Of a stretch of 64,000 bases of DNA, positions 38,724-58,979 are shown in pieces. The notes below the pieces were generated by a model. The model did not search any database, was not told the DNA's origin, and saw only the letters and a list, made by a program, of their open reading frames with translations. This DNA is from a virus. Position numbers and translations under genes: made by a program. The first letter of the stretch is position 1. Each line of letters begins with the position of its first letter. The stretch spans positions 1 through 64,000 of the IMG/VR virus record IMGVR_UViG_3300025305_003938; one strand, 5' to 3'.

Positions 38724-38797
38724 GCGGGTGTAGCTCAGCGGTAGAGCATCGCGTTGCAACGCGAAGGTCGTGAGTTCGAATCCTACCACCGAGACCA
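38724..38797 (+). pseudogene. Decayed tRNA-Gly-like gene
   Basis: The sequence closely follows bacterial tRNA-Gly(GCC), but the anticodon loop reads TTGCAA (6 bases), as if one C of TTGCCAA was lost. The 3' acceptor (CACCGAG) no longer pairs with GCGGGTG beyond four bases, and the T-stem has a mismatch. The CCA end is kept. It is probably a pseudogene; an unusual functional tRNA (Cys-like GCA) is less likely. Confidence 0.65.
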
Positions 38798-38955: not shown

Positions 38956-39744
38956 ATGAATGACAGCAATACAGTGCTTCTATGTCCACCCATGTTTTTT
39001 GATGTGAAATATTCAATCAATCCATGGATGAAGGGTGAAAAAGTCAACACGGCCATGGCAAGAAAACAATGGTTTGAGATGAAGTGGGTACTGGAAGATC
39101 TAGGTATAAAAGTGAAGCTCATAGGGCAGGAAAACTATCTGCCAGATATGGTTTTCACAGCCAACGCCGGAACAGTTAAAGACAAAAAAGTAGTCTTAAG
39201 TAATTTTAAGCACTATCAACGACAGCCGGAAAGAGAAGTATTTCAGCGTTGGTTTGAGGAATTCGGATATGAAACTCACAAGCTACCAGACGGCATGCAC
39301 TTTGAAGGCTGCGGAGACACGATTCTATCGGGCAACAAGCTGATTGCGGGGTATGGATATAGATCAGACCTCCGGGCCCTTAAAAAGACCGCTGAGATCT
39401 TAGAATTGCAATTAATTTCTCTTAAGCTAAAGAATCCCAACTTTTATCACCTAGACACCTGTTTTAGCCTCCTAAGAGAAGACTTGGCCATATATTATCC
39501 CGGCGCATTTAGCGATCACACAATATCGAAAATTAAAAACATAGAACTGTTACCGGTAACGGAGAACGAAGCTAATCAGTTCGCATGCAACTCTATCGTG
39601 TACAAAGACAACATATTAATGCCGGCAAAGAATAATCGCCTTGTTGATGAATTGGCAAATTATGGTTACACTGTTAGGCTGATCGACACTTCTGAATTCT
39701 TAAAATCCGGTGGATCATTACAATGTATGTCTTTATGGATTTAA
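38956..39744 (+). CDS. DDAH/amidinotransferase-family enzyme (pentein fold)
   Basis: This 262-residue protein shows the motifs of the guanidino-group-modifying superfamily: PDMVFTANAG, FEGCGDTIL, the catalytic His in FYHLDTCFS (about 163) and the nucleophile Cys257 in GGSLQCMSL near the C-terminus. Members hydrolyse methylarginine or transfer amidino groups. It might alter arginine-derived metabolites or protein arginines. Such enzymes are rare in phages. A TATAAT lies just upstream but without a good -35 box. Confidence 0.85.
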   Translation: MNDSNTVLLCPPMFFDVKYSINPWMKGEKVNTAMARKQWFEMKWVLEDLGIKVKLIGQENYLPDMVFTANAGTVKDKKVVLSNFKHYQRQPEREVFQRWFEEFGYETHKLPDGMHFEGCGDTILSGNKLIAGYGYRSDLRALKKTAEILELQLISLKLKNPNFYHLDTCFSLLREDLAIYYPGAFSDHTISKIKNIELLPVTENEANQFACNSIVYKDNILMPAKNNRLVDELANYGYTVRLIDTSEFLKSGGSLQCMSLWI

Positions 39745-40385: not shown

Positions 40386-40472
40386 TCCGGAGTGGCGAAA
40401 CTGGTAACCGCACTTGACTGTTAATCAAGCGTCATTTATGACTTGGGAGTTCAAACCTCTCCTCCGGAGCCA
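40386..40472 (+). tRNA. tRNA-Asn(GUU) with a long variable arm
   Basis: Acceptor TCCGGAG/CTCCGGA with U1-A72 and G73 as in bacterial tRNA-Asn, anticodon stem CTTGA/TCAAG with loop CTGTTAA (anticodon GTT), T-arm GGGAG-TTCAAAC-CTCTC and encoded CCA. The variable arm is 15 bases with its own stem (GTCA-TTTA-TGAC), a class II feature normally limited to Leu, Ser and Tyr. Confidence 0.85.
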
Positions 40473-40562: not shown

Positions 40563-41795
40563 ATGAGTATTTTTAGAGAACACAAATCAAAAGTTGATAG
40601 AAGTGCAACTGACAGAAAGCGCCACAAAGAAAAGATTGAAAAGGCTATCAAGGAAAGCATAAAAGATGTTGTAGCAGAAGAGAGTATTATTGGCCAGAGT
40701 GGCAAAAAGAAAATAAAAATCCCTGTAAAGGGTATAAAAGAATATAGGTTTGTCTACGGTGGCAACGAAAAGAATCAAAAGGTTGGATCCGCCGGCGACA
40801 TCGACGTTAAGAAGGGCCAAAGGATCGGCAAAAAGACGGCAGAAAGAATGCAACAGGGAAACAAGCCCTCCGACAAAGCCGGCGAAGAATCCTATGAAGT
40901 AGAGATAAGCTTAGAAGAGTTAGCTAGTTACCTGTTTGACAGCCTAGAGCTTCCGGAACTAGAAAAGAAGAGATTTAAGTTTGTAAATCAAGAAAAGCTA
41001 AGAAGGAAGGGCCATCGCCTCAAAGGCATCCGTTCCAGACTTTCAAAGAAGGAAACTCTTAAGAGAAAAATTAAGAGAAAGAAGCGGGCTATAGCGGCTG
41101 GTACCTATAATCCCGACAGCGACGAGCGCTTTCCGTTTCACAAGGACGATTTAAAGTATCACCACGTTAAGCCAAAAAATAAAGAAAATACTGCCGCTGT
41201 CATTTTCTTCTTAATGGATGTATCCGGTTCTATGGATCAGGATAAAAAATTCTTGGCAAGAAGCTTCTGTTTCCTCTTGTATCAATTCATTAGGCACAAA
41301 TACGAAAACGTTGAAGTTGTATTTATCTCACACACCACTGAAGCAAAGCAGGTAAATGAGCAAGAGTTCTTCACTAGAATAACGTCCGGCGGTACGATAA
41401 TGTCGACGGCCCTAGAGTTAGAGAAAGACCTAATTGAGAAGCAATATCACCCAAGTTCTTGGAATATATACACTTTTTATGCCGGCGATGGTGAAAATTG
41501 GCCGGCCGACATCAAAAAGTCTGTAGATCTGCTAGCCGAACTCAAAGAAATTAATCAACTAATTTCATATGCAGAAATAACGCCATGGGATACCAACGGT
41601 TGGCAAGATCCCACGTGGGTAGATCCCATGGTACCAAAACCATACCATGCCAGAAGGACCAATCTGAACCCCATGGCGCTGTCGATGTGGGAAGAATTAA
41701 ATTTAATTGAGGACTCCTCTTTGAAGAGAATAAAGATAGTTAACTCAGAGTCAATATGGCCCGCATTCAACAGGCTGTTCGGAGTAAAGAAATAA
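40563..41795 (+). CDS. yeaH: YeaH-family VWA protein (DUF444)
   Basis: This 410-residue protein matches DUF444/YeaH throughout: RSATDRKRHKEKIEKAI at the start, IKIPVKGIKEYRFVYGG, a very basic middle, FFLMDVSGSMDQDKKFLAR (metal-binding site near 219-223) and TSGGTIMSTALELEKDLI. The family is found with PrkA kinase and SpoVR in stress and starvation regulons. It overlaps the next start (TAATG), so the three genes are one operon. Confidence 0.92.
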   Translation: MSIFREHKSKVDRSATDRKRHKEKIEKAIKESIKDVVAEESIIGQSGKKKIKIPVKGIKEYRFVYGGNEKNQKVGSAGDIDVKKGQRIGKKTAERMQQGNKPSDKAGEESYEVEISLEELASYLFDSLELPELEKKRFKFVNQEKLRRKGHRLKGIRSRLSKKETLKRKIKRKKRAIAAGTYNPDSDERFPFHKDDLKYHHVKPKNKENTAAVIFFLMDVSGSMDQDKKFLARSFCFLLYQFIRHKYENVEVVFISHTTEAKQVNEQEFFTRITSGGTIMSTALELEKDLIEKQYHPSSWNIYTFYAGDGENWPADIKKSVDLLAELKEINQLISYAEITPWDTNGWQDPTWVDPMVPKPYHARRTNLNPMALSMWEELNLIEDSSLKRIKIVNSESIWPAFNRLFGVKK

Positions 41796-43111
41796 TGAAC
41801 GATTGGACTATAGGAGAATTAGAGGACTGGGATAATAAGATCTGTAAGATCGGCGAATCATACGGCCTAGACTGGTTTGACATTGATTATGAAATAATCG
41901 ATTATCATGAAATGATCGGTGCGATGTCCTACACTGGCATGCCTACGCACTATAGACATTGGTCTTTTGGAAAGTCTTTTGAACTTACTCATGCAAAATA
42001 TACAATGGGTCAGACCGGCCTACCTTATGAGATGATTATCAACTCAAACCCGAGCATCGCTTATTTGATGAAAGAGAATCCACTAAGCACACATTTGTTA
42101 ACCATGGCACATTGTGTCGGCCATAGTGATTTCTTTAAGAACAACAGAATGTTTAAACATACAGATCCAGACAACGTGATCAATAGGTTCAAGTTAGGCG
42201 CTAAGAGGATTCAAGAATATCTCGGAGATCCATCGATAGGTGTAGAGAAAGTAGAAAACATTATAGATGCATGTCATGCAATAAAGTACCAAATCCCCAG
42301 AACCCCTGGTATCATAAGACGAAGCAATGATGAACTTAGGGCAATTTATGCGGAGAAGATGCTTGATGATGAGGATGGGATATACGATGATATTAATCTG
42401 GATAAGGTGCCCCTAGAACGAGATTATAATTTACTAGCATTCATCAGAGAAAACTCTCGTAATCTTACAGATTGGCAGAGAGATGTAATGTTGATTGTAG
42501 AAGAGAATTCTCAATATTTCCTTCCACAAGCTTATACGAAAATTATGAACGAGGGTTGGGCCGTCCTAATTCATGAAAAAATAATGAAAGAATTAGATCT
42601 CCCACATAAACATCATTTGGCTTTTATAAAATTACATAATCAGGTCGTCCGCCCACATTTGGGTAGTGTAAATCCTTACCACCTAGGCTATACAATTTTT
42701 AAGAAGATAGAGGAAGCTGAAGGCCTAGACGCTTGTTTGTTAGCCCGCGAAGTACATAATGATGTTTCATTTTTAAGAAAATACTTAGATGAAGAAACTT
42801 GTAGGGAGTTGAATTTATTTGCTTTTTCCTTTAAAAAAAGAAACAATCAGCATACTATAGATGATGTTTCTAATGAAGACGGGTGGACGAACGTCCGCGA
42901 CGCTCTAATTAGTACAGTTGGATTGAACTCTGTGCCGGTTGTGTATGTGGAAGAGCTAATGAAGGACAGCACACTACGTATTATACATGAGCACGATGGT
43001 CGCGATATAGACCTACGTGACGCGCAAAGAGTGTATGACCATATAAAACAACTGTGGGGAGACGATGTACTCTTTACAACAATAATTGAAGAGGAGCCAT
43101 GGGAATTCTAA
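41795..43111 (+). CDS. spoVR: SpoVR/YcgB-family protein
   Basis: This 438-residue protein starts at ATG 41795 (TAATG overlap). Family hallmarks are clear: GLDWFDIDYEIIDYHEMIG, GMPTHYRHWSFGKSFE, AHCVGHSDFFKNN, NEGWAVLIHEKIM and NPYHLGYTIFKKIEE. The role of SpoVR is not established; in bacteria it associates genetically with PrkA and YeaH. This is the full-length form. It is followed 1 base later by the PrkA gene. Confidence 0.94.
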   Translation: MNDWTIGELEDWDNKICKIGESYGLDWFDIDYEIIDYHEMIGAMSYTGMPTHYRHWSFGKSFELTHAKYTMGQTGLPYEMIINSNPSIAYLMKENPLSTHLLTMAHCVGHSDFFKNNRMFKHTDPDNVINRFKLGAKRIQEYLGDPSIGVEKVENIIDACHAIKYQIPRTPGIIRRSNDELRAIYAEKMLDDEDGIYDDINLDKVPLERDYNLLAFIRENSRNLTDWQRDVMLIVEENSQYFLPQAYTKIMNEGWAVLIHEKIMKELDLPHKHHLAFIKLHNQVVRPHLGSVNPYHLGYTIFKKIEEAEGLDACLLAREVHNDVSFLRKYLDEETCRELNLFAFSFKKRNNQHTIDDVSNEDGWTNVRDALISTVGLNSVPVVYVEELMKDSTLRIIHEHDGRDIDLRDAQRVYDHIKQLWGDDVLFTTIIEEEPWEF

Positions 43112-43112
43112 A

Positions 43113-45047
43113 ATGAAAAAATCAACAAAATTTCTTAAGGAAATAGACAAACACAGCAGTCGTAAAAGAGCTGAAAAATTTGAAGGAACTTTGGGAGAAT
43201 ATATCAATCTTCTAGAAGTCAATCCTTCAGCTTGTGATTTAGCTCACAAGCGACTCTATGAGGCTCTTGCTGGCCATGGTATCACTACTATGGCGGAGTC
43301 CGACACTAGGTGCAATAAACTTTTTGGCGGAGAAGCAGTAAAAACTTATGATTATTTTCAAAGTAAGTTCTTTGGAATGGAGCGTTCTTTAGCAAAAATC
43401 ATGAGATTCCTGAGATCAGCCTCTTTAAAAGGTGAAGAAAGCCGACAGGTTTTGCTTTTACTCGGCCCAGTTGGCGCCGGCAAATCTGCCCTTGTAGAAC
43501 ACATCAAGCGCGCCCTAGAGAATTCCGGCCCGATGTATCACATTGCAGATTGTCCAATACACGAGGAACCCCTCCATTTGATCCCGCGTGGTTTAAGAGC
43601 CTCTTTCCAAGAAATTTATGGCATCAAAATCGAAGGTGATTTATGTCCCGTCTGCCGGCACAATCTCTTGAATGAACACGCCGGCGATTACATGAATGTT
43701 CCAGTTTCAGAGTCGACCTTTTCAATTAGAGGCCGCCGCGGCGTCGGTGTTGTACCACCAATGGATGCCAATACACAGGATACATCGATCTTAATAGGTA
43801 CTGAAGACATTTCGAAATTGGATCTATATCCAGAAGATGATCCCCGTGTCTTGAGTCTTAATGGGGCATTCAACGTAGGTAATCGCGGCATTGTAGAGTT
43901 CGTTGAGGTCTTCAAGAATGAAATCGAGTTCTTGCATACCATGATTACGGCAACTCAGGAAAAATCAGTCCCTTCCCCGGGCAAGCAGGCCATGATTTAT
44001 TTTGATGGTGTAATCCTCTCTCACTGTAACGAAGCAGAGTGGAATAAGTTCAAGTCTGAGCACACTAACGAAGCAATCTTGGATAGAATTGTACGCGTTA
44101 ACGTGCCGTACTGCTTAGAATACGCAGAAGAAGAGAAGATTTACAAAAAATTAATTGGTGAATCTGATTTTGAGTGCCATTTTGCGCCTCACACACTAGA
44201 ATTTGCCTCCATGTTTGCTGTTCTTTCCCGCCTCAAGCCAACGAACAAAGTAGATCTTCTTACGAAGATGAAAATATACAACGGTGAAGAGATTGTTGAA
44301 AAGGGTTCTGTTCGCAAACTTGACATTGATGATCTCCGCGAAGAGGTAGTTGATGAAGGGATGACGGGTATTTCTACACGTTTTATCATGAAGGCTATCG
44401 ACAATGCATTGTCGGACTCAGATAAGAACATGATAACTCCAATCTCTATTCGCGACTCACTTGTAAAGCAGGTGAAGGACCAGATTGTAGATCAAGAAAC
44501 TAGAGAAACATGCTTGATTTTCTTACAGAAAATTCTTCACGAAGAGTACCTAAGAATTCTAGAGAAAGAAATAACAAAGGCTTTTGTTTCCGCATATGAC
44601 GAACAGGCCGAAGCTTTATTCAATAACTATCTCGACCATGCCGAGGCTTACGTGAACGCCACAAAGGTTAAGGATCGGGTTACGAAAGAAGAGATCAATC
44701 CCGATGAGAACTTCATGAAATCAATCGAACAGCAGATCGGTATACAGGGTAGCGCTAAAGATAATTTTAGAAGCGACATTACTGCTTACATGTTTGCTAT
44801 GCTCCGCCGCGGCGAAGTCATTGACTGGAGAAGTTACGGGCCCCTACGTGAAGCAATTGAGAACAAATTAGTAACATCAGTGAAAGATATAACAAGAATC
44901 GTTACAAAGTCTAAGAGTAGAGATAAGGGCCAACAGAAGAAATACAATGGTATGGTAGAAACTCTAATAGAAGACTATGGATACACCGAAGACTCTGCAG
45001 AGGAAATTATCAAATTTGCTGCTAATAATTTGTGGAGAGATTCGTAA
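43113..45047 (+). CDS. prkA: PrkA-family serine kinase / AAA ATPase (YeaG)
   Basis: This 644-residue protein starts at ATG 43113. Walker A GPVGAGKS lies at 118-125. The PrkA-specific stretches are FFGMERSLAKIMRFLRSAS, CPVCRHNLLNEHAGDYMNV and EFVEVFKNEIEFLHTMITAT, with GISTRFIMKAIDNALSD further on. This is the normal length for the family. With YeaH and SpoVR it makes the whole prkA-yeaH-spoVR set known from host stress responses, here in the order yeaH-spoVR-prkA. It may control host physiology during infection. Confidence 0.95.
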   Translation: MKKSTKFLKEIDKHSSRKRAEKFEGTLGEYINLLEVNPSACDLAHKRLYEALAGHGITTMAESDTRCNKLFGGEAVKTYDYFQSKFFGMERSLAKIMRFLRSASLKGEESRQVLLLLGPVGAGKSALVEHIKRALENSGPMYHIADCPIHEEPLHLIPRGLRASFQEIYGIKIEGDLCPVCRHNLLNEHAGDYMNVPVSESTFSIRGRRGVGVVPPMDANTQDTSILIGTEDISKLDLYPEDDPRVLSLNGAFNVGNRGIVEFVEVFKNEIEFLHTMITATQEKSVPSPGKQAMIYFDGVILSHCNEAEWNKFKSEHTNEAILDRIVRVNVPYCLEYAEEEKIYKKLIGESDFECHFAPHTLEFASMFAVLSRLKPTNKVDLLTKMKIYNGEEIVEKGSVRKLDIDDLREEVVDEGMTGISTRFIMKAIDNALSDSDKNMITPISIRDSLVKQVKDQIVDQETRETCLIFLQKILHEEYLRILEKEITKAFVSAYDEQAEALFNNYLDHAEAYVNATKVKDRVTKEEINPDENFMKSIEQQIGIQGSAKDNFRSDITAYMFAMLRRGEVIDWRSYGPLREAIENKLVTSVKDITRIVTKSKSRDKGQQKKYNGMVETLIEDYGYTEDSAEEIIKFAANNLWRDS

Positions 45048-45061
45048 ATAAAAAGTGATAT

Positions 45062-46402
45062 ATGACAAAGACTATCTATGTGCTAGACACTAGTGTTTAT
45101 TTAACAAACGCTGATTCAATTTTTTCCTTCAACGATAATGATATAATTATTCCGCTGAAGGTATTAGAAGAGGTAGACAAGCATAAGAAGCGCCAAGATG
45201 GCGCCGGCTTGAATGCTAGAACGATAATTCGAATATTAGATTCCCTAAGAGAAGAGGGCAGCCTCTATGAAGGCGTCGGCTTGGGCCCGGGCCTGGGAAA
45301 AATCAAGGTAAGAGGGATAGAGACAGTTCATACAGACCAGTTCCCTAAAGATCTGAATATGAACGTTCCCGACCATATGATCATCGCGACAGCTCTGTCT
45401 GAAAAGATAGATAGTCCCGAAAGCGAAATTGTGGTTGTCACGCGTGACATTAACATGCGCGTAATCTGTGACTCTCTGGGTCTGTCCTGTGAAGATTATA
45501 TTGACAATAAGATTGTTAAGAGTGGCGAAAGTATTTTTACAGGTCACGTGGCGCACAGCATAGAAGACTCAGAAATCGATGCACTCTATAGCGGTGAAGA
45601 GATATACTTAGATCCTGAAGAGATTGAAGTCTTTCCAAATCAATTTGTAATGTTGAAATCAAACATCAATTCAAAAAGAACGGTTTTGACACGATTTGTA
45701 AATTATGTTAGCCCTCTCGTCCGCGTCGCCGCTAACAGGGCTGGTGTCTGGGGGGTGAAACCTAGGAACAGGGAACAGACGTACGCCCTAGATATCTTGA
45801 TGAACCCAGATATATCCCTAGTTACGTTGATAGGCAAGGCCGGCTCCGGTAAGACTCTTTGTGCTATAGCCGCGGGAATACAGCAAACTTTAGATCCAAC
45901 ATCGGGTGATGCTGGCGAACCTAGATACACTAGAATGATCGTTTCTCGCCCCGTTCAGCCGCTAGGAAAGGATATTGGTTTCCTTCCCGGCACCCTGGAA
46001 GAGAAGATGCACCCATGGTTGATGCCGATTCAAGATAATCTGCAGTTCTTAATGGGTAACGACAAAGCAACGCTAGAAATGTACATGGAGCAGGGCACAA
46101 TTGAGATAGAAGCTCTGACCTATATCCGCGGCCGCTCGATAGCAAATGCTTTTATTATTATTGATGAGGCTCAGAACTTAACAACTCACGAATTAAAGAC
46201 TATTATTACAAGAGTTGGTGAGGGTACTAAAATTGTATTGACCGGTGATGTCGAACAGATTGATAATACATATATCGATGCTACTAGCAACGGTTTAACG
46301 CATGCAGTTGAGAAGTTTAAAGAAGCAGACCTAGCAGCCCACATCACCCTCTTGAAAGGTGAGAGATCTAAAGTTGCAACCCTCGCCGCAAAAATCTTAT
46401 AG
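45062..46402 (+). CDS. phoH: PhoH-family ATPase with N-terminal PIN domain
   Basis: In this 446-residue protein the PIN domain (about 1-135) opens with IYVLDTSVYLTNADSI, continues with LKVLEEVDKHKK and has NVPDHMIIATAL. The PhoH ATPase follows with GKAGSGKT (258-265) and FIIIDEAQNLTTHELKTII. This PIN-PhoH type (PhoH2) is an RNA helicase/ribonuclease in bacteria. PhoH is a common auxiliary gene of marine T4-like phages. It is 14 bases after PrkA. Confidence 0.94.
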   Translation: MTKTIYVLDTSVYLTNADSIFSFNDNDIIIPLKVLEEVDKHKKRQDGAGLNARTIIRILDSLREEGSLYEGVGLGPGLGKIKVRGIETVHTDQFPKDLNMNVPDHMIIATALSEKIDSPESEIVVVTRDINMRVICDSLGLSCEDYIDNKIVKSGESIFTGHVAHSIEDSEIDALYSGEEIYLDPEEIEVFPNQFVMLKSNINSKRTVLTRFVNYVSPLVRVAANRAGVWGVKPRNREQTYALDILMNPDISLVTLIGKAGSGKTLCAIAAGIQQTLDPTSGDAGEPRYTRMIVSRPVQPLGKDIGFLPGTLEEKMHPWLMPIQDNLQFLMGNDKATLEMYMEQGTIEIEALTYIRGRSIANAFIIIDEAQNLTTHELKTIITRVGEGTKIVLTGDVEQIDNTYIDATSNGLTHAVEKFKEADLAAHITLLKGERSKVATLAAKIL

Positions 46403-46411: not shown

Positions 46412-46720
46412 ATGAGCACAGAAGAGAATCCAATATTAAAAGAAGTAGTCGAGCAGGATTCACCATTAAAAACTTTAGTGGTTAATTATGTCGGCACAGT
46501 ACACAGTCCAGAAAACGGAGAAGTTACCGTAGAAATGATTGTAGACACCATGGTTAAAGAATTTCCAGAATTTTTGATGGTTATCGCAGAAGAAAACTGG
46601 ATTAGAGGATATCACCAAGCGCTGGGCGATGTCGAAGAGGGCGAACGTTTGGCACAGGAACAATCCACTACTCCCGAGCAAACTGAAACGACTGAAGAAG
46701 TCCCCGCCGCAGCAGAATGA
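46412..46720 (+). CDS. Small acidic protein, unknown
   Basis: This 102-residue protein has a folded-looking middle (EVTVEMIVDTMVKEFPEFLMVIAEENWIRG, split over two helices) and a Glu/Thr/Ala-rich disordered tail. It overlaps the next start by 4 bases. No family is recognised. Confidence 0.7.
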   Translation: MSTEENPILKEVVEQDSPLKTLVVNYVGTVHSPENGEVTVEMIVDTMVKEFPEFLMVIAEENWIRGYHQALGDVEEGERLAQEQSTTPEQTETTEEVPAAAE

Positions 46721-47385
46721 TGAGAGATTTTGTAAAAGAGGCCGCATCACAGCCTAGGCGTGAATATCATATATACAATGATATCAACGTCTTAATCAAG
46801 GATTTCCCGCAGTCCGAAGAGGTTGATATTCCGGCCCTTTTATCAAAAATAGAATACACACTACCCAGATACTACTTCGATAATATTGACGTTGTTTATG
46901 TCGGCGAATTCGAAGATTTGGGTGATCGCAATGCTGCATTTTTAGATGGCGCTATCTATATGACGAGCACAGAACCAACAACACATGATATGTTAGAAAA
47001 TATTGTACATGAGGTTGCGCACTCCCTAGAGGGCGATCATGGTGATATGCTGTATGGCGACCAGAAGGTTATTAGCGAATTCCTAGGAAAAAGAGAAAGA
47101 CTTAGGTTAATTCTAGAACAAGAAGGTTACACAATCCCTGAAGAGTTCTACGAGCAGACCGAATACAACAGAAATTTTGATAAATTCCTAATGAATACGG
47201 TAGGGTACCCTACATTAACATATCTGACAATGGGCCTGTTTGTTAGCCCATATGGTGCCACTTCTTTGCGAGAGTATTTTGCAAATGCTTTTGAGCATTT
47301 TTATATCAATGATCGCGAAGATGTTAAGAAAGTAAGTCCGCAAGTTTACTTGAAGATTGACTATTTACATAAAACAGGAGAGTAA
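46717..47385 (+). CDS. Zinc metallopeptidase (gluzincin-like)
   Basis: In this 222-residue protein IVHEVAHSLEG (about 94-104) carries HExxH, and a later TSLREYFANAFEHFY (about 187-201) can supply the Glu ligand, as in lethal-factor-like peptidases found in T4-like phages. No signal peptide is seen. A role in virion maturation or host protein cleavage is possible. Confidence 0.85.
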   Translation: MMRDFVKEAASQPRREYHIYNDINVLIKDFPQSEEVDIPALLSKIEYTLPRYYFDNIDVVYVGEFEDLGDRNAAFLDGAIYMTSTEPTTHDMLENIVHEVAHSLEGDHGDMLYGDQKVISEFLGKRERLRLILEQEGYTIPEEFYEQTEYNRNFDKFLMNTVGYPTLTYLTMGLFVSPYGATSLREYFANAFEHFYINDREDVKKVSPQVYLKIDYLHKTGE

Positions 47386-48615: not shown

Positions 48616-49881
48616 ATGGCAAAAAAGATTAAAATTTTCACATTAAGCGACCATCCGCTTTCGCCCTCTGGTGTGGGCACACAGACAAAGTACATGATAG
48701 AGGCTATGCTTAGAACTGGAAATTACCAGTTCGTAAGCTTTGGCGGCGCAATCAAGCATCACGACTACAGGCCAGTTAAAACAGAAGAGTGGGGTGATGA
48801 CTGGGTAATATACCCTGTTGATGGCTACGGAGATCAAGAGTCAGTAAGATCAGTAGTGTGGTCTGAAAAGCCAGATGTGCTGTGGTTTATGACAGATCCT
48901 CGCTTCTGGGACTGGCTATGGGCGATTGAAAATGAGATCCGGGCCAATGTTCCTATGGTCTACTATCACGTTTGGGACAACTATCCTTACCCTAAATTCA
49001 ACAAAGCTTTTTATGACTCCAACGATCATGTCGCATGCATATCGAAGCTAACGTATGATGTTGTACAGAACGTATCACCAGACGTAGGTAGCTCCTATGT
49101 TCCTCACACGGTTGACACAGGCATATTCAAGAGGCTCGATGAAGCGACAGTTGCGGAGTTTAAAGAAGAGCACTTCAAAAGCGCGAATAATCCAGATCGC
49201 TTAGTTTTCTTCTGGAACAATAGAAATGCAAGAAGAAAGCAGTCCGGCACTGTATTATGGTGGTTTAAAGATTTCTTAGACGTTGTTGGCCACAGTAACG
49301 CATGTTTGATAATGCACACCGAAACGGATGATGTACATGGCCAGGATCTGGAAGCTATAGCTAGAGAATTAAACCTCACAGATGGCCAAGTTCGCTTTTC
49401 GAAACAAAAAGTCCCACCGGAGTACTTAGCGCTCGCCTATAACATGGCCGATTGTACTATCAATCTCGCCGATGCTGAAGGCTTTGGTTTGGCAACTCTA
49501 GAGTCCTTAGCATGTGAGACTCCCATTATAGTCACAATGACCGGCGGTATGCAGGAGCAAGTTACAGATGGTGAGAACTGGTTTGGCATAGGCCTGGAAC
49601 CGGCCTCAAAGGCAATTATCGGATCGCAAGAGGTTCCGTACATCTATGAAGACAGGCTAGCCCGTAAAGACTTTTTAGATGCCATATTAAAGATTTATAA
49701 CATGACTCCAGCCCAACGCCAAGAATTGGGCGCCAATGGTCGTAATCACATCATGACAAACTATTCGTTTGATCAATATAGCAAAAACTGGGATGAGCTT
49801 TTTATGAGCATTCATGAAGAGTGTGGTTCGTGGTCGACAAGAAAAAATTATGAGTCTTGGACCTTCAAGGAGATAAAATGA
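48616..49881 (+). CDS. Glycosyltransferase (GT4-like, GT-B fold)
   Basis: This 421-residue protein starts with IKIFTLSDHPLSPSGVGTQT, a GT-B nucleotide-sugar N-domain, and has the donor-binding EGFGLATLESLACETPIIVT in the C-domain. It is the first gene of a 14-kb glycan operon and overlaps the next gene by 4 bases. Confidence 0.88.
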   Translation: MAKKIKIFTLSDHPLSPSGVGTQTKYMIEAMLRTGNYQFVSFGGAIKHHDYRPVKTEEWGDDWVIYPVDGYGDQESVRSVVWSEKPDVLWFMTDPRFWDWLWAIENEIRANVPMVYYHVWDNYPYPKFNKAFYDSNDHVACISKLTYDVVQNVSPDVGSSYVPHTVDTGIFKRLDEATVAEFKEEHFKSANNPDRLVFFWNNRNARRKQSGTVLWWFKDFLDVVGHSNACLIMHTETDDVHGQDLEAIARELNLTDGQVRFSKQKVPPEYLALAYNMADCTINLADAEGFGLATLESLACETPIIVTMTGGMQEQVTDGENWFGIGLEPASKAIIGSQEVPYIYEDRLARKDFLDAILKIYNMTPAQRQELGANGRNHIMTNYSFDQYSKNWDELFMSIHEECGSWSTRKNYESWTFKEIK

Positions 49882-51962
49882 GAAAGAAGATTTTAGTCAA
49901 GGGCCCCGCCCTCTCACGTTCAGGGTATGGAGAACAGACAAGGTTCGCCCTCAGATCCCTCAGATCCCAGGAAGAGAAGTATGACATTTATTTACAGAAT
50001 ATCCCATGGGGTGCCACTGGGTGGATCTTTGAGGTCAACGAAGAGCGCGAGTGGATCGATAGTACACTAGCTAAAACTGTCAAGCATACAGCCTCTGGTG
50101 GCAAGTTTGATATGTCCTTGCAGGTCACAATCCCAAATGAGTGGGAAAAGTTAGCTCCGATAAACATCGGATATACGGCCGGCATTGAGACAAGCCAAAT
50201 CTCTCCACATTGGATTGAAAAATCAGAAGTGGTTGATAAGATAATCACAATATCCAAGCACTCCCGGGACGTTTTCTTAAATACAGTCTATGATGTGCAG
50301 AACAAGGAAACCGGTGCTGTCGTTAAGGGCTACAGATGTGAAACACCCATCGAAGTAGTCCACTACCCAGTGAGAAGCGTTGAACCGGCCGCTTTGAGTT
50401 TGGATCTAGAAACAGATTTTAACTTCTTGATGATAGCTCAATGGGGAGTTAGAAAGAACCTAGAGAATACCTTACGATGGTTTGTTGAGGAATTTATTGA
50501 TCGTGACGTTGGCTTAGTCCTCAAGACGAATCTAGCGAACGATTCGGTTATGGATCGCGTACATGCAGAAGAGCGCCTAAAAAGTCTTCTAGATTCGTAC
50601 AAAGACAGGAAGTGTAAAGTGTACATGATACACGGCACAATGTCTGATAGTGAATTGGCCGGACTCTACACACATCCGAAAATTAAAGCTCTAATTTCTT
50701 TAACTCACGGTGAGGGCTACGGCCTTCCAATTTTTGAAGCCGCTTATAGTGGCCTACCGATTGTCACTGCTGGCTGGAGTGGCCATGTAGACTTCCTAAG
50801 TGCCCCAGTTAAAGATAAGAAGGGCAAAATGAAAGTCAAGCCACTTTACGCATCGGTCGATTACGAAGTCAAGCGAATTCAGAAAGAGGCTCGATGGGAA
50901 GGCGTCATCGAAAAGAAATCAGAGTGGTGTTACCCCCGCGAAGGCAGTGCAAAAATGCGCATGCGAGAGGTCTTTAAAAACCATAAACTAGCCCAAAGTC
51001 GCGCCAACAAATTGCAGAGTTGGATCATCGATAACTTTACAGAAGAGTCGAAATATGAACAATTTGCGAATGCAGTTTGTAATGAAACGCTTAACTTAGA
51101 TTGTGAATATGTTTTTGTCAGCGACAGGTTCGCTGATCAAGCGCCCGGCGGAGCAGAATTGAGCCTGCAGGCTGTAATCGACAGCACACCAGCCGATTAT
51201 ATTAAACTTAACGCAGCTGACGTTAGTTTGGGTTTGATTGAAAAGTTGCAAGACAAAACTTGGATATTCTCTAACTTCACTTCTTTGGACAAGACTCTGA
51301 TTCCTGTAGTAGCAAGAGACTTAAAGTATTACTTTATAGAATCAGATTACAAATACTGCGAACACAGACTACCACAACTTTGCCAGATCTTCAATGGCTG
51401 CGAAGATTGTGATTGCGTCGAAAAAGAGTCCGGACAATTAATTAAATTGTTCTGTGATAACGCGCAGTTACTGTTCTTCCGTTCTGAGAAACAGCGCGAA
51501 CATCATTTATCTGCCCTGGCTCTAAATAAGAAGAAGACGAGAATAATGTCCGCTGTGTTCACATCGGAGATACTAGACTTACTGCAAGAAATGCGCACCA
51601 CGTTTGCCGACAAGAAAGTGGATGTTTGGGTTATTAGCTCCTCCCCGTCGTGGGTCAAGGGTCATCAAGCTTCTAAGAAATGGTGTGAAGAAAATAAGAA
51701 GAACGTATTTGAATTGCATGGTCGATCATATAAAGAATCCCTAGCTTGCTTAGCTCAGGCCCGCGGCCTCTGCGCATTGCCTCCGGGTTATGATACTTGT
51801 CCGCGGATGGTGATCGAAGCAAAATTATTAGGCTGTGATCTGGAATTGAATGATAATGTTTTACATGCGAAAGAGCACTGGTTCGATACAGATGATTTGG
51901 AGGTTGTAGATACACACTTAAGATCTGTCATTCCATCCTTCTGGGAGGCAGTAACTGGTTAA
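49878..51962 (+). CDS. Double-module glycosyltransferase
   Basis: In this 694-residue protein the first GT-B module (about 1-400) has LSRSGYGEQTRFALRSL and GEGYGLPIFEAAYSGLPIV. The second, diverged module (about 410-690) has FADQAPGGAELSLQAVI and GYDTCPRMVIEAKLLGC. A two-active-site enzyme could add two sugars in turn. It starts at ATG 49878 (ATGA overlap). Confidence 0.85.
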   Translation: MRKKILVKGPALSRSGYGEQTRFALRSLRSQEEKYDIYLQNIPWGATGWIFEVNEEREWIDSTLAKTVKHTASGGKFDMSLQVTIPNEWEKLAPINIGYTAGIETSQISPHWIEKSEVVDKIITISKHSRDVFLNTVYDVQNKETGAVVKGYRCETPIEVVHYPVRSVEPAALSLDLETDFNFLMIAQWGVRKNLENTLRWFVEEFIDRDVGLVLKTNLANDSVMDRVHAEERLKSLLDSYKDRKCKVYMIHGTMSDSELAGLYTHPKIKALISLTHGEGYGLPIFEAAYSGLPIVTAGWSGHVDFLSAPVKDKKGKMKVKPLYASVDYEVKRIQKEARWEGVIEKKSEWCYPREGSAKMRMREVFKNHKLAQSRANKLQSWIIDNFTEESKYEQFANAVCNETLNLDCEYVFVSDRFADQAPGGAELSLQAVIDSTPADYIKLNAADVSLGLIEKLQDKTWIFSNFTSLDKTLIPVVARDLKYYFIESDYKYCEHRLPQLCQIFNGCEDCDCVEKESGQLIKLFCDNAQLLFFRSEKQREHHLSALALNKKKTRIMSAVFTSEILDLLQEMRTTFADKKVDVWVISSSPSWVKGHQASKKWCEENKKNVFELHGRSYKESLACLAQARGLCALPPGYDTCPRMVIEAKLLGCDLELNDNVLHAKEHWFDTDDLEVVDTHLRSVIPSFWEAVTG

Positions 51963-51963
51963 A

Positions 51964-52716
51964 ATGTCAGATACTCATTTTAAAATTGTTACTTCGATGT
52001 ACAACGTTGAAGATTGGATTAAAAGAACAGCGTCGAGCATAAAAAATCAGAACTACACAAATTTTCAATGTGTCTTCATTGATGATGCGTCCACTGACAG
52101 AACTGTGGAGATCTTAGAAAGCCTCGTAGGCGATGATGAGCGGTTTGCTGTTCTTAAGAATTCAGATAAGAAATATTCGCTAGGCAGGATCAACCAGGGT
52201 ATCGAGCATGCTTCTCCTGCCGATGAAGATATTATTCTGAGTGTCGACGGAGATGATTGGCTAGCCACAAAAAACGTATTAACTTATCTGGATGAGTTTT
52301 ATAAGAAGGAACAATGTTGGATGACATACGGAAGCTATATGGAATACCCAACAGGTATGAAGGGTATCGAAGCTTCGGCATATTCTCCGGAAGTCGTCCA
52401 AAATAACACATATAGAACAGATCGATGGCGTGCCTCCCATTTAAGAACATTCAAATACAAACTTTGGAAGAACATCGAAAAAGAAGACCTTCTAGACTGG
52501 AATGGCAATTTCTTCAAAACGACTATCGATAAAGCTTTCATGTACCCTATGCTGGAGATGGCCGGCCCCCGTGCCAAATATATAGACGAAACGCTCTACG
52601 TGTACAATCTGACAAATCCGCTTAACGTGCATAAATCCCGTCGAGAGTTACAATTAAAAACAAACGATTACCTGAGAGGCAAAGAAGCATATGACCGCAA
52701 AGACATATTGCATTAA
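51964..52716 (+). CDS. GT2-family glycosyltransferase
   Basis: This 250-residue GT-A enzyme has VTSMYNVEDWIKRTASSI, CVFIDDASTDRTVEIL and the metal-binding region LSVDGDDWLAT. It starts 1 base after the previous stop. The last 26 bases overlap the methyltransferase gene. Confidence 0.88.
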   Translation: MSDTHFKIVTSMYNVEDWIKRTASSIKNQNYTNFQCVFIDDASTDRTVEILESLVGDDERFAVLKNSDKKYSLGRINQGIEHASPADEDIILSVDGDDWLATKNVLTYLDEFYKKEQCWMTYGSYMEYPTGMKGIEASAYSPEVVQNNTYRTDRWRASHLRTFKYKLWKNIEKEDLLDWNGNFFKTTIDKAFMYPMLEMAGPRAKYIDETLYVYNLTNPLNVHKSRRELQLKTNDYLRGKEAYDRKDILH

Positions 52717-53311
52717 AGAAGAATACATCCACAGAGATGAATATATCCAGAATGTACAAATAGGCTCTGGAGACAAGTTCCAAGATCGAGTGTACGCAAA
52801 AGCCCACGAGGTTTGCGAGCGTAATAATTGTATGACTGTACTGGATATTGGATGCGGATCTGCCTATAAGCTGATAAAATATTTTGGTGATAAAATTTTT
52901 TTAGGATTAGAACTTGAACCGAATCTGAGTTGGCTTAAAGAAACTTACCCTCATTACCACTTCCGACGTTCTGATTTTGACAACCCTCCCGGTGGCCACT
53001 TTGACTTGGTAATCTGCTCTGATGTTATCGAGCACTTAATAGATCCAGATCAGCTGCTAGAATTTGTACAAAAGCTAAGCTTTGGCACATTCGTTGTTTC
53101 AACTCCGGAGCGAGACAATATGCAGATTTTACAAAAGGGTCACACTTGGGATGGCCCACCACACAATGTCTATCACGTTAGAGAATGGACGGCACCAGAG
53201 TTCAAGCAATACATTTCTCAAACATTCAATGTCGAAGAACAGATATTAACGAAAGGTGAAGAAGTTAGTACAGTTGACGAGTGTCAAATCGTCGTTGCAA
53301 CTAGAAAATGA
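52691..53311 (+). CDS. SAM-dependent methyltransferase
   Basis: This 206-residue class I fold has TVLDIGCGSAYKLIKYFG (motif I), FLGLELEPN, FDLVICSDVIEHLIDPD and a typical C-terminal sheet. It probably methylates a sugar or glycan end. It overlaps its neighbours on both sides. Confidence 0.88.
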   Translation: MTAKTYCIKEEYIHRDEYIQNVQIGSGDKFQDRVYAKAHEVCERNNCMTVLDIGCGSAYKLIKYFGDKIFLGLELEPNLSWLKETYPHYHFRRSDFDNPPGGHFDLVICSDVIEHLIDPDQLLEFVQKLSFGTFVVSTPERDNMQILQKGHTWDGPPHNVYHVREWTAPEFKQYISQTFNVEEQILTKGEEVSTVDECQIVVATRK

Positions 53312-54216
53312 AAGTTCTTCTAGACAATGTGAATTTAAATTCCACTAGTGGTCCGAATCACTTTGGATCAAAACTAAATAAATACATAAGTCGCCTGGGG
53401 TCGGAACTAGTATCACACCCTTCAGCTGCAGCTCCTGACATTCAATTGTCTTTTATAGAATCCTTCATCGATACGAATTTACCATTAGTTCAGCGCCTCG
53501 ATGGAATCTACTTCGATATTGATAAAGATAACAAGTTGCTAAACTCAAACATACTCAGGACATATGAGAGATCATCAGGAGTGATATTCCAATCCGAATA
53601 TTGCAGAGATCTCTGTTTTAGATATTTGGGAGAACACGACAATCATGCCGTCATTCATAACGGCGCCGATTATGAGCTAATAAGAGAGATTACTCCCATG
53701 GAGGTCCCTATGCTTAACAAATTCGAAACAGTGTGGTCTTGCGCCGGCCGCTGGCGACCATGGAAGCGCCTCCGACAAAACATAGAATATTTCATTAACT
53801 TTTCTGGACCCAACGACTGCTTGATTGTCGCTGGAGATGGTGGCGCCAGTGAGATGATAAAACACGATAGAGTATTTTATGTTGGTAGACTTCCGGTTGA
53901 TATCTTATTTTCTTTATATAAGAGATCTAAGCACTTTATACATTTGGCAAGATATGACGCTTGTCCAAACGTTGTAGTCGATGCCCGCGCCAGCGGCTGT
54001 CAGATCATATGCTCTTCTTTAGCAGGAACAAAAGAAGTCGCTGGCCCAGACGCTACCATTGTCGAAGATATCCCATGGGATTTGGAGCCGGTAAGCACAA
54101 CGAGAATTCCAGATATTAAGTTCGATAACATAACAAAGAACACATACGATACGAACATCGACATGTCCTTTGTTGCAAAAAAATACTTAAACTTTCTAGA
54201 AAAAACTTTACAATAG
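53308..54216 (+). CDS. Glycosyltransferase (GT4-like)
   Basis: This 302-residue protein has VIFQSEYCRDLCFRYLGE in the N-domain and the C-domain donor site ARYDACPNVVVDARASGCQI. It is shorter than usual GT4 enzymes (about 350-400). It overlaps the methyltransferase stop (ATGA). Confidence 0.85.
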   Translation: MKVLLDNVNLNSTSGPNHFGSKLNKYISRLGSELVSHPSAAAPDIQLSFIESFIDTNLPLVQRLDGIYFDIDKDNKLLNSNILRTYERSSGVIFQSEYCRDLCFRYLGEHDNHAVIHNGADYELIREITPMEVPMLNKFETVWSCAGRWRPWKRLRQNIEYFINFSGPNDCLIVAGDGGASEMIKHDRVFYVGRLPVDILFSLYKRSKHFIHLARYDACPNVVVDARASGCQIICSSLAGTKEVAGPDATIVEDIPWDLEPVSTTRIPDIKFDNITKNTYDTNIDMSFVAKKYLNFLEKTLQ

Positions 54217-54223
54217 GATTATT

Positions 54224-55072
54224 ATGTTAGTACAAAAACAAGTTGATAAATTTATGATGAACCTGAACGTTGAGGATGGAGGCATCTCCAGAGTGCTCTA
54301 TCACATCGGAGAACGCGAGCTAGCGTTTATGTCTCTTTTGCGAGAGACAGTGCAGGAGGGCATGACATGTGTAGATCTGGGTAGTAATATCGGGTACACA
54401 ACTCTTTTTATGCTCGACAAGGTTGGGCCCCGCGGCCGCGTTTATGCAATTGAGCCCGACCCAAACAACCTAGGTCTCCTTCGAAGTAATGTTAGCCAGA
54501 ACCACTTCCTAGAAAACTGTGAGATCACTCAATGTGCAATTTCAGATACAGATGGTCAGTTAGACTTTTGGCAGGCCAGCGCTCCGAACCTGAGCAGTAT
54601 CACCAAACACAAAAATAGCACTCACAAAATCACCGTTGATTCTTACTGTCTTAACACTTTCTTGTCTGAGCGTTCCTATCCAAACTTTATAAAAATGGAC
54701 GTTGAAGGAGGCGAAGTCAAGATTTTTGAAGGTGGGCTGGAATACTTTACGAAAAATAGAGGCACCACACACTTCTTGGTCGAGGTGCATCCAGCAACCT
54801 ACAATGAAGACAACGACTTCGAAGCAGTGCTCAAAGAGTACTTCAAGATAGGATTCAACCCCAAATATGTTGTAACCACACCGGTGCCACAGCCGGCCTT
54901 ATTTGCTGATGCTGGTTACACTCCGTCCCGCACTGTTGAAACCGATGGTTTTCATCGAGGCGTCTACGATGATATTTCACAAGAACATCTACTAGAATTT
55001 TCTTGTAGAGAACATCCCGAGGGCCGCAGCAAGAAAATCGTAAGAAGCTTCATGCTTTCCAGAGAAGAGTAA
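54224..55072 (+). CDS. FkbM-family methyltransferase
   Basis: In this 282-residue protein CVDLGSNIGYTTLFMLDKVG is the AdoMet site, followed by VYAIEPDPNNLGLLRSNV and NFIKMDVEGGEVKIFEGG, the FkbM hallmark. It probably methylates a glycan hydroxyl. Its AGGATT ribosome-binding site is weak, but the start is clear. Confidence 0.9.
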   Translation: MLVQKQVDKFMMNLNVEDGGISRVLYHIGERELAFMSLLRETVQEGMTCVDLGSNIGYTTLFMLDKVGPRGRVYAIEPDPNNLGLLRSNVSQNHFLENCEITQCAISDTDGQLDFWQASAPNLSSITKHKNSTHKITVDSYCLNTFLSERSYPNFIKMDVEGGEVKIFEGGLEYFTKNRGTTHFLVEVHPATYNEDNDFEAVLKEYFKIGFNPKYVVTTPVPQPALFADAGYTPSRTVETDGFHRGVYDDISQEHLLEFSCREHPEGRSKKIVRSFMLSREE

Positions 55073-55080
55073 AACATTAA

Positions 55081-55773
55081 ATGTACTTTGACAAAGGATT
55101 GAATGACTTTGGGATAGTTCTAAAGGGGGCTAGTGTTGCAAGGATTCATAAGATAGTCGACAATTATCAAGACTGCTATATGGTTAATAATTTTGACCGT
55201 AATGCGAATAATGAAGAGTCTGAGTGGAGTTTAGTAGCTCCATTACTTCATGGAAAGAACATTGTTCATTTTGTCAATCGACTTGAAACGGCCCCCCTTC
55301 TAAGAGAACATTATGAAGAATTGAATATCCAACATATCCAGTTCACGAAAACAGAGCTGGACGCCCGCCTCCGCGACATGAAAAACCTTTATGAAAGCTA
55401 TGACCTAACTTGCCATATGCTTCCAGAGGAACTGTTAGAATATAATAGCTTCTTTACGGACAAATATTATATGCGCCCGGGCGATTCCAATTACGCTGTG
55501 AAGCACCCGAACACAGGTGTTTTATCGATCATTTATGCTGCTCATGTTTTGAAACCCAAGAACTTGTGGATTGCTGGTTTGGACTTTTATCAAAACGATT
55601 ACCTGTTCAGAAGGCCGTGGATTGCGCCCCTAAAGAATCAACAGTTGAAAATGAAAAACACTCAGATGGTAGAGCACTTTGTCGAGATCATCAAAAAGCA
55701 TCCGGATATTAATTTTAAGATGATAACTAATGCGAAATTACCAAGTTTAGATAACTTGGAGATCATAGAGTGA
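55081..55773 (+). CDS. Sialyltransferase-like protein (GT42-like)
   Basis: In this 230-residue protein IVLKGASVARIHKIV at the start and NTGVLSIIYAAHVLKPKNLW with IAGLDFYQND resemble bacterial GT42 sialyltransferases (CstII type). The overlap with the next, GT29-like gene and the downstream NeuA/NeuB genes support transfer of sialic or a related acid. The residues that would act in catalysis are not certain. Confidence 0.65.
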   Translation: MYFDKGLNDFGIVLKGASVARIHKIVDNYQDCYMVNNFDRNANNEESEWSLVAPLLHGKNIVHFVNRLETAPLLREHYEELNIQHIQFTKTELDARLRDMKNLYESYDLTCHMLPEELLEYNSFFTDKYYMRPGDSNYAVKHPNTGVLSIIYAAHVLKPKNLWIAGLDFYQNDYLFRRPWIAPLKNQQLKMKNTQMVEHFVEIIKKHPDINFKMITNAKLPSLDNLEIIE

Positions 55774-56576
55774 CAGAGTATAAAGATCTTTTTGGGCCCG
55801 CCGAGTTACGTCTTTTTCTAGAGAAGATCAAACCCGATGAAAAATATAATGATTATCTTAGAGGCAAGCGCGTCGCCATAGTGGGCCCATCGAAACATAT
55901 GCTGGCATATGACGCCGGCAGTGTTATTGATGAATATGATGTTGTTATTAGAATGAAGTGGGTTGATATCCTACCACTCTCAGAACACTGCAATGGCAAA
56001 TATGTAAAACACATCGGCAGTAAGACTGATGTTGTATACGGTAATAGGTTTCTTATTGTTAACAACATGATGCAGGAATATCTAGAGTATTTTAAAAGAT
56101 CTGAAATAGATCACTATAGAATCCCCGATAATAAGGTTTCGAACCACTTTTTCTCCAAGGAACTAGCATGCGGCACGACGTATACAGAATACGCATGCGG
56201 AGATTTTGGACTTCAGTATCAATCTATCACACAAACAGATGGTACAAGATATTGGCCGCAAACAGGAACGGTGGCCATCATGGAAGCAATTGCTAGCGAT
56301 GCTGCAGAGATTTTCGTTAGTGGCATAACCATGTATCATGGCGGTGGCCACATCTTCCAGAAGAATAAGAACCCCACACACAATCAGCCTATTGTGGGAA
56401 AACATCACGGCGTGTTAGAAACAGCAATGTTAATAGATTGCTATGAATTATCAGAAAATCGTGGTAAAATAAGATTTGATGAGCCCCTGTATAACATTAT
56501 GAACATGTACAAACAGGGTTTAGCCACGAAGGAAATTACAAAAACAATAAATGAGTTTGTAAATAAACTGGAATGA
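55770..56576 (+). CDS. Sialyltransferase-like protein (GT29-like)
   Basis: In this 268-residue protein RVAIVGPSKHMLAYDAGSVI followed by EYDVVIRMKW resembles sialylmotif L, and PQTGTVAIMEAIASDAAEIF with GITMYHGGGH resembles motif S and the catalytic His. GT29 is mainly a eukaryotic family with bacterial relatives. The gene overlaps the CMP-sialate synthetase gene, so it may be the step that adds the acid to the glycan. Confidence 0.72.
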   Translation: MTEYKDLFGPAELRLFLEKIKPDEKYNDYLRGKRVAIVGPSKHMLAYDAGSVIDEYDVVIRMKWVDILPLSEHCNGKYVKHIGSKTDVVYGNRFLIVNNMMQEYLEYFKRSEIDHYRIPDNKVSNHFFSKELACGTTYTEYACGDFGLQYQSITQTDGTRYWPQTGTVAIMEAIASDAAEIFVSGITMYHGGGHIFQKNKNPTHNQPIVGKHHGVLETAMLIDCYELSENRGKIRFDEPLYNIMNMYKQGLATKEITKTINEFVNKLE

Positions 56577-57250
56577 TAACAGACAAGAAAATTTTAGCAG
56601 TCACTCTCGCCCGCGGCGGCTCAAAGAAGATTCCGAGAAAAAACATAATCGACATCAATGGTAAGCCGCTGCTAGCCTACACAACAGAGATCGTCAAGGA
56701 GAGTCAGTATGTGGATAAACATATTGTATCGACGGATGATTTGGAAATTGCAATGATCGTAGAAGAATGTGGAGCCGAGTTGCATATGAGGCCCCCCCTT
56801 TTGGCACAAGATGATACTACCTCTGCAGCTGCGTTGATGGATGTTGTGCAAAGCAACCCCAACTATGACTATGTGGTGGAAGTCATGGCCACAAATCCAT
56901 TAAAAACGACAGAAGACCTTGACAAAGCACTAGAGAAGCTTTATGATACTGGAGCTGACTCTGTTGTATCGGTAGTGAGAATATGGGATCACCACCCCTC
57001 TAGAGTCAAATATATCAAAGAAGACAAGTTAATGGATTTTTACCCAGAGATACCCGAATCCCGCCGGCAAGATTTAACACCGGCAGCATATGTCAGAAAC
57101 GGAAGTATATATGCAACGACTGTGGAGTCTTTCCTAGAACATGAGGTTCGCCTAGGCCCAGATACAAGGCCCTATATTATGTCAGAAGAGAACACGATTA
57201 ATATCGATGAACCTAGAGATTTAGAGTTAGCAAGAATAATACTTAAATGA
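56573..57250 (+). CDS. neuA: CMP-N-acylneuraminate cytidylyltransferase (NeuA-like)
   Basis: This 225-residue, full-length member has ILAVTLARGGSKKIPRKNI (CTP site), HIVSTDDLEIAMI, EVMATNPLKTTEDL and AAYVRNGSIYATTVE. It activates a nonulosonic acid to its CMP form. It is placed between the GT29-like gene and a dehydrogenase gene, with overlaps on both sides. Confidence 0.92.
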   Translation: MITDKKILAVTLARGGSKKIPRKNIIDINGKPLLAYTTEIVKESQYVDKHIVSTDDLEIAMIVEECGAELHMRPPLLAQDDTTSAAALMDVVQSNPNYDYVVEVMATNPLKTTEDLDKALEKLYDTGADSVVSVVRIWDHHPSRVKYIKEDKLMDFYPEIPESRRQDLTPAAYVRNGSIYATTVESFLEHEVRLGPDTRPYIMSEENTINIDEPRDLELARIILK

Positions 57251-58179: not shown

Positions 58180-58979
58180 CAGAAATTATTGCTGAAATCG
58201 GTTGGAATCATATGGGAGACATCGAGTTGGCTGATCGTATGATCGGTGCTGCAGCCCGAAGTGGCGCCACTTATGCTAAATTTCAAACTTGGTCTGTTTC
58301 TAGGTTGAAAGACGGAGAGTGGGACAGGGACGGCCGCCGCCAAATCTACGAAAATGCAGAATTAACCGCAGCTGATCATATAGACTTGATGAACCTGTGT
58401 GACAAGCATAGCATTAAATTTCTATCATCAGTGTTTAGTGTTCCAGATGCTCAACTGCTAGCAGACTTGGGCCAGTCATCGGTTGTTAAGATTCCGAGTT
58501 TTGAATGCAGAAATGTAGAATTAATTGATTTCTGTAATGAGCACTTTAAGAAGGTTTATATGTCAACAGGCACATCCAAGTGGTCAGAATTACAGGAAAT
58601 CGTACCAAGGTTCGATAAAGCTGAACTCACCCTTCTTCACTGTGTCTCTTCTTATCCATGCTTGCCAACCATGGCAAACATTTCAAAGCTAGCTGACTTA
58701 AAAACTCTTTGCCCTCGTATCGGCTATAGCGACCATATCATGGGAGTGGAGTCCGCGAAAGTGGCGTTAGCCTATGGTCTAGACGTTGTTGAGAAGCATT
58801 TTACGGTAGACCATGACCTTCCGGGCCGCGACAACAAGTTTGCAGTACTACCAGAGGAACTTAAGAGCCTATCGGAATTTATCACACTTGTCAAAGAGAT
58901 GCATCAGTTTCACGGGCTAGACTATCAGGCCGCAGAGGAAGGTGCCCGCAATGAATACGCGGGAAGATTTAATGGCTGA
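58176..58979 (+). CDS. neuB: Nonulosonic acid synthase (NeuB-like), catalytic domain only
   Basis: This 267-residue TIM-barrel has IIAEIGWNHMGDIELADRMI, AKFQTWSVSRLKDGEW, LLHCVSSYPCL and VEKHFTVDHDLPGRDNKFAV, all NeuB marks. Typical NeuB proteins have about 345 residues with a C-terminal antifreeze (SAF) domain, which is missing here. It would condense PEP with an amino sugar to form a sialic-type acid. Confidence 0.9.
   Translation: MTEIIAEIGWNHMGDIELADRMIGAAARSGATYAKFQTWSVSRLKDGEWDRDGRRQIYENAELTAADHIDLMNLCDKHSIKFLSSVFSVPDAQLLADLGQSSVVKIPSFECRNVELIDFCNEHFKKVYMSTGTSKWSELQEIVPRFDKAELTLLHCVSSYPCLPTMANISKLADLKTLCPRIGYSDHIMGVESAKVALAYGLDVVEKHFTVDHDLPGRDNKFAVLPEELKSLSEFITLVKEMHQFHGLDYQAAEEGARNEYAGRFNG

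Follow-up and report, generated by a model that had tools for sequence, protein, structure and literature searches.

A yeaH-spoVR-prkA gene set in a clade of marine T4-like phages and its possible role in protein remodeling

The window analyzed here, 64,000 nucleotides of viral DNA (positions 1 to 64,000 of IMG/VR record IMGVR_UViG_3300025305_003938, which is 80,438 bases long), carries the three adjacent genes yeaH, spoVR and prkA. Many bacteria have the PrkA-YeaH-SpoVR set and use it to survive starvation. Judging from metagenomic sequence, the set is also common in uncultivated marine phages. By the literature that we found, three things are new: a large clade of marine T4-like phages in which the set has a fixed gene order, the evidence that phages captured it repeatedly, and an apparent pseudo-chaperonin encoded next to it. 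We give a probability of about 0.5 to the reading that the three proteins form an AAA+/VWA protein-remodeling machine, with SpoVR as its effector, which the phage supplies while it infects slow-growing or stressed cells.

The gene set in the window

Four consecutive genes on the plus strand, taken from open reading frame (ORF) calls, fill positions 40563-46402:

40563..41795, +, yeaH (DUF444; VWA-type, with an intact metal ion-dependent adhesion site, MIDAS), 410 amino acids (aa); Pfam PF04285, E=2e-104; phrog_19072, E=8e-92
41795..43111, +, spoVR, 438 aa from ATG 41795; Pfam PF04293, E=4e-116
43113..45047, +, prkA, 644 aa from ATG 43113; PF08298 (AAA_PrkA), E=2e-137; PF06798 (PrkA C-terminal domain), E=2e-80
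45062..46402, +, phoH2-type gene (PIN domain plus PhoH ATPase), 446 aa; PF02562, E=2e-51; PF13638 (PIN_4), E=4e-25

The Pfam scores of all four proteins lie far over the cut-off, with the small C-terminal domain of SpoVR as the exception. Two of the starts differ from those first listed. That of spoVR is likely ATG 41795, which has a GGAG upstream and overlaps the yeaH stop (TAATG), rather than 41756, and that of prkA is likely ATG 43113, 1 base past the spoVR stop, rather than TTG 43086. The N-terminal residues dropped by both corrections largely coincide with low-confidence ends of the PrkA and SpoVR structure models (residues 1-11 of the longer SpoVR ORF, for instance). Because the corrected starts leave one overlap and one 1-base gap, the three genes are tightly coupled and read as a single, predicted translational unit. 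Five matches to the T4 late-promoter motif TATAAATA were found against 4.1 expected, none of them just upstream of the set, and scans for sigma70 promoters and terminators were not clearly over chance.

Alignments that took in both phage and bacterial homologs found the expected active-site residues unchanged. In PrkA, the Walker A motif G127-PVGAGK-S134, the acidic residues E271/E274, the sensor-like N315 and the pair D333-R334 were invariant in 66 sequences; the YeaH MIDAS (D219-x-S221-x-S223, T278 and D309) was invariant in 32, and H119xxxH123, E167, N265-E266, H273, H294 and H411 of SpoVR in 60. Between the window and its nearest phage relative, 81-88% identical, the nonsynonymous divergence (dN) was 0.08-0.12 for the three genes and the synonymous divergence (dS) was saturated, so that only dN is quoted and no ratio of the two is computable. 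Low dN with saturated dS indicates strong purifying selection on all three genes. A preliminary description, made from the letters of the window, had reported three adjacent, coupled, full-length genes with intact motifs and a PhoH gene after them; Pfam, the alignments and the start contexts bear this out, and the PhoH gene lies where it was placed. It had also held that loss of kinase residues, or a bacterial chromosome as the source, would undo its reading. The ATPase residues, as said, are unchanged in all 66 PrkA sequences, and the source proved to be viral.

For the latter we point to T4-type baseplate ORFs of the same record just outside the window (gp25, PF04965, E=9e-13; gp6-type, phrog_6, E=2e-22) and to the T4 capsid protein Gp23, found in 12 of 17 set-bearing records (that of the window plus 16 relatives), including all ten of at least 132 kb. 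Gp23 was not found in the window's own 80-kb fragment. By its gene content, then, the source reads as a fragment of a large marine T4-like phage.

Carriers and origins of the set

Two scans of IMG/VR give the spread of the set. That with the window's PrkA returned 156 related stretches, of which the best 80 were fetched, and every fetched locus with enough flank had the order yeaH-spoVR-prkA. A YeaH profile, scanned independently, returned 354; of the 78 loci newly fetched from these, 77 had the same order, and the remaining one ends shortly after yeaH. A DNA-level search of the phage collection in distant mode matched only a short stretch of PhoH.

Bacteria arrange the genes differently. Among the matches listed, 64 of 68 cellular-record loci with all three genes had prkA-yeaH-spoVR (2 of these 64 carry an extra PrkA-like ORF), so the preliminary description was right that the order in the window departs from the usual prkA-first arrangement. 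The remaining four are three loci from metagenome-assembled genomes (MAGs) of hot-spring Bacillota, with yeaH-spoVR-prkA, and a 305-kb contig (L090, NHDW01000006.1) filed under a Methylococcaceae MAG, which has the phage order and falls in the marine phage clade. We read this last contig as phage DNA in a bacterial bin because of its place in the clade and because contig C5 of that MAG, probably the same contig, carries Gp23. The hot-spring loci (L127, L128 and L131) are a possible source of the order found in Thermus phages.

Those phages (phiYS40, phiLo, MN1 and Lalka8) have yeaH, spoVR and prkA in the marine order as well. Thus, phage carriage and the yeaH-first order as such were already on deposit in phiYS40 and other Thermus phages. 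A further group of records has proteobacterial-type sets with prkA first, several of them together with T4-type Gp23 and the large terminase subunit TerL. The table of the paper on the Ralstonia jumbo phage RsoM2USA, rather than the sequence itself, lists SpoVR as ORF28 and PrkA as ORF30 (PMC8504454). The preliminary description had known of no described role in phage infection. That much stands, in that we found no experiment on such a role; carriage itself has precedents in the Thermus phages and RsoM2USA. Two other candidates were set aside. The "YeaG-YeaH" of Enterobacter phage LAU1 (L172) is host-like and sits at the start of the record beside tail genes, which we read as host flank, and the "sporulation protein" of Bacillus phage CM1 is a lone VWA-like gene with a weak match.

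In the trees, the marine phage PrkA, SpoVR and YeaH each form one clade, with support of 100, 100 and 97 in the Shimodaira-Hasegawa-like approximate likelihood ratio test. The neighbors of this clade, for PrkA and SpoVR, are Clostridia and Myxococcota/Bdellovibrionota-type homologs. Sequences from huge phages and from other T4-like phages sit inside a proteobacterial clade, and those of the Thermus phages group, on long branches, with Bacillota/Chloroflexota-type sequences. The approximately unbiased (AU) test rejected a single origin of all phage PrkAs (p=2e-7), as well as trees that hold the marine PrkAs together with those of Thermus phages (p=6e-7) or with the proteobacterial type (p=1e-34). 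These rejections imply at least three separate captures, and imply also that marine and Thermus phages do not owe their shared order to a common phage ancestor. We say "at least" because the placement of the Thermus phages and of locus L006 rests on long branches. Even the nearest cellular PrkAs among the matches listed share at most ~58% identity with marine phage PrkA; closer cellular donors may exist outside of this sample. Phylogeny against host and phage sequences, which the preliminary description had proposed, thus gives each protein a clade of its own, and its view that the set is no fresh copy of a host operon agrees with the depth of the phage clade, with this identity and with the saturated dS.

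The set is accessory. Among 15 phage records picked by capsid similarity alone, one has PrkA and SpoVR and 14 have neither, an all-or-none pattern, subject to the possibility that some records are incomplete. Since the same set was captured several times by unrelated phage lineages, it probably helps phages reproduce, and repeated all-or-none capture suggests that the three proteins suffice as a unit on their own and are of use during an infection cycle. This narrows the possible functions, and the Thermus phages, being culturable, offer a tractable test bed.

About half of the marine clade has a chaperonin-like gene beside the set. Of 74 marine loci that extend 2.5 kb or more beyond prkA, 39 have a GroEL-like ORF of ~450 aa immediately or closely past that gene, and so do 46 of 77 loci from the YeaH scan (L035:9926-11281 and 39 other marine phage loci, outside the window, are examples). 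In some loci the ORF overlaps prkA. It matches phrog_5725 (E=1e-13) and GroELs in the PDB (E=2e-7). It lacks the ATPase motif GDGTTT, as well as much of the equatorial region toward the C terminus, and is apparently an ATPase-dead pseudo-chaperonin. A second, strongly matching GroEL is encoded elsewhere in 12 of 17 long records; the four that were aligned keep GDGTTT. On this sequence evidence the pseudo-chaperonin connects the set with protein folding across roughly half of the clade, an unexpected link to proteostasis.

Possible function of the set

What PrkA does is central to any reading. Its structure model (mean predicted local distance difference test score, pLDDT, 86.6) shows an AAA+ domain and, after it, a C-terminal region (residues ~411-653) that is helical throughout. 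The best fold matches of the AAA+ core in the PDB were sigma54 activators, Lon, NorQ, CbbQ and BchI. The template modeling (TM) score, by target length, was 0.64-0.72 for NorQ and 0.71 for cso-CbbQ, with sigma54 activators and Lon similar by E-value. Of these, NorQ, CbbQ and BchI act jointly with VWA partners, and the NorQ matched is in complex with the VWA domain of NorD. NorQ and NorD are an established AAA+/VWA remodeling pair, in which cryo-electron microscopy places a finger of the VWA domain in the AAA+ pore for an ATP-driven remodeling that serves metal insertion (PMC13036017, PMC9976466). The third protein, SpoVR, crosslinks RNA in vivo in Bacillus subtilis (PMC12456014).

We favor a remodeling machine because the AAA+ core of PrkA resembles those of the VWA-partnered NorQ, CbbQ and BchI, because YeaH keeps its MIDAS and because SpoVR crosslinks RNA. 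We imagine that PrkA would form an AAA+ ring driven by ATP, on which YeaH would dock through its VWA domain, with the MIDAS holding a client, and that SpoVR may be a client-facing or RNA-binding effector. Supplied by the phage in slow-growing or stressed cells, such a machine would spare it reliance on the host's own, starvation-induced copy and might maintain the function of the infected cell's proteins or translation machinery, or of assembly clients of the phage itself. That PrkA forms a ring on which YeaH docks, what SpoVR does, which client is handled and how the phage gains from it are inferences on our part. Several points weigh against this reading. Pfam assigns PrkA to AAA_PrkA/PrkA, with no MoxR model, so it is not a MoxR protein. 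Older biochemistry reportedly gives B. subtilis PrkA a protease activity. The SpoVR model, although of high confidence (pLDDT 90.6), has no significant fold match in the PDB, which makes its role a guess; neither the window's 80-kb record nor the loci of its closest relatives have the pseudo-chaperonin; most capsid-relatives do without this accessory set; and the literature gave no experiment on the role of the set in any phage infection. Earlier claims of kinase activity exist for YeaG and B. subtilis PrkA, as cited in PMC3188799.

Those claims belong to a signaling reading, close to that of the preliminary description, in which the phage reprograms the host through a kinase system: PrkA as a Ser/Thr kinase would push the host to a starvation-like state or extend its viability during a slow infection. 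It is a minority possibility, to be taken seriously. In nitrogen-starved Escherichia coli, yeaG and yeaH mutants share a recovery phenotype, and the action of YeaG lies upstream of rpoS (PMC4664914). Work in Rhizobium etli (PMC3188799) also counts in its favor, as does the intactness of the set, and such a physiological outcome would be compatible with an AAA+ mechanism too. Against it, the PrkA model has no nucleotide-binding N-lobe of a kinase, and its C-terminal region does not appear to take the bilobal Hanks-type fold. No protein kinase was among its 50 best fold matches in the PDB. Bacillus anthracis requires its PrkA to sporulate and to survive osmotic stress, yet the highly purified protein showed no detectable kinase activity and negligible protease activity (PMC13001217). 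The rpoS/NtrC wiring, moreover, does not hold for hosts in general. From the model, we consider the name "serine kinase" doubtful, and the claim of a kinase system weak. The fixed, permuted order in the marine clade and the pseudo-chaperonin likewise point to protein remodeling over classical kinase signaling. Three PDB entries (9xip, 9xiq and 9xir; 30 chains, 692 aa) hold a PrkA-family protein named "Serine protein kinase"; they were missing from the fold-search matches.

Alternatively, the phages might have turned the machine into a chaperone that helps their own large capsid or tail proteins to assemble or mature. In favor of this, most carriers have large genomes; in Lalka8 the set lies between the genes for a minor head protein and TerL, and in phiYS40 it is close to TerL. 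A chaperonin-like neighbor also occurs in half of the marine clade, and most long records encode a further GroEL elsewhere. However, most capsid-relatives build the same type of capsid without the set, and in the window it adjoins tRNAs, PhoH and glycosyltransferases, not virion genes, so we regard this as unlikely. An action of SpoVR on the cell envelope, by which the set would delay lysis or alter the wall during infection, seems quite improbable: spoVR and cbgA phenotypes in spore cortex formation are known from Bacillus and Myxococcus (as cited in PMC12456014), but the SpoVR model matches no known enzyme, no lysis gene lies beside the set, and the cellular homologs sampled include many nonsporulating Proteobacteria. 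That the set is functionless cargo of recent host origin is hardly credible. Some phage records do carry host flanks, as the host-like yeaGH of LAU1 illustrates; a deep single clade, low dN with saturated dS, invariant residues, conserved order and repeated capture all contradict it.

The remodeling machine may have a larger setting. A tentative extension, doubtful as yet, would be a dedicated phage proteostasis operon in which yeaH-spoVR-prkA and the ATPase-dead GroEL paralog cooperate, perhaps with the intact phage GroEL, in remodeling host or virion proteins. If true, it would represent a previously undescribed kind of viral chaperone machine.

Surroundings and comparison with known systems

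The PhoH protein is a fusion with a PIN domain, of the PhoH2 type, which beside a stress set suggests RNA cleavage or unwinding. Its gene adjoins prkA in the window and lies several kb further on in more distant relatives. Upstream of the set the nearest feature is a tRNA gene:

40386..40472, +, tRNA-Asn, directly upstream of the set; ARAGORN; Rfam RF00005

ARAGORN finds eight tRNAs in the window, and Rfam one further match (38727-38790). The tRNA-rich stretch also holds, at 38956-39744, a gene like those of arginine deiminase and dimethylarginine dimethylaminohydrolase (PF19420, E=9e-21). The phage encodes a transfer-messenger RNA at 25230-25547, with the tag ANNADYDLALTA, directly followed by an endonuclease VII/HNH-like gene. 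Past PhoH, a small predicted zincin metalloprotease with HEVAH (46717-47385) has only subthreshold Pfam matches, to ATLF/M90, and no PHROG. Genes for glycosyltransferases, methyltransferases, a nucleotide-sugar epimerase and UDP-glucose dehydrogenase make up a large phage glycan cluster at 48616-62557. Positions 1-6000 have a G+C content of 50-54%, against ~41% in the rest, and carry an ATPase gene (phrog_1297) and an HNH-type gene (phrog_1314).

Among phages, phiYS40 (DQ997624) comes closest: its genes 056-057-059, deposited as SpoVR and serine kinase, are the same trio in the same order, with the difference that one extra gene stands between spoVR and prkA. PrkAs of Thermus phages are 32-35% identical to that of the window, and as Bacillota/Chloroflexota-type proteins they represent a separate acquisition. 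The huge phages LR756502, LR756504 and LR745206 (uncultured, more than 600 kb) likewise have PrkA, SpoVR and YeaH in very large genomes, but with prkA first and proteins of the proteobacterial type; in LR756502, SpoVR is unlinked, ~245 kb from PrkA.

With the bacterial operon (E. coli yeaG-yeaH plus the unlinked ycgB; the R. etli prkA operon) the phage set shares the three families, their placement on one strand, the coupling and the motifs. It differs in its permuted order, its carriage by phages and its own phage clade, and starvation control by the host would not be expected. The MoxR pairs NorQ-NorD, CbbQ-CbbO and RavA-ViaA, and the related BchI-BchD, have in common with it an AAA+ core and a neighboring VWA partner with a MIDAS, whereas PrkA is a family of its own with a large helical C-terminal domain and has SpoVR as a third partner. 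By analogy, PrkA beside a MIDAS-bearing YeaH fits the AAA+/VWA pattern, and may work like a MoxR pair rather than be one.

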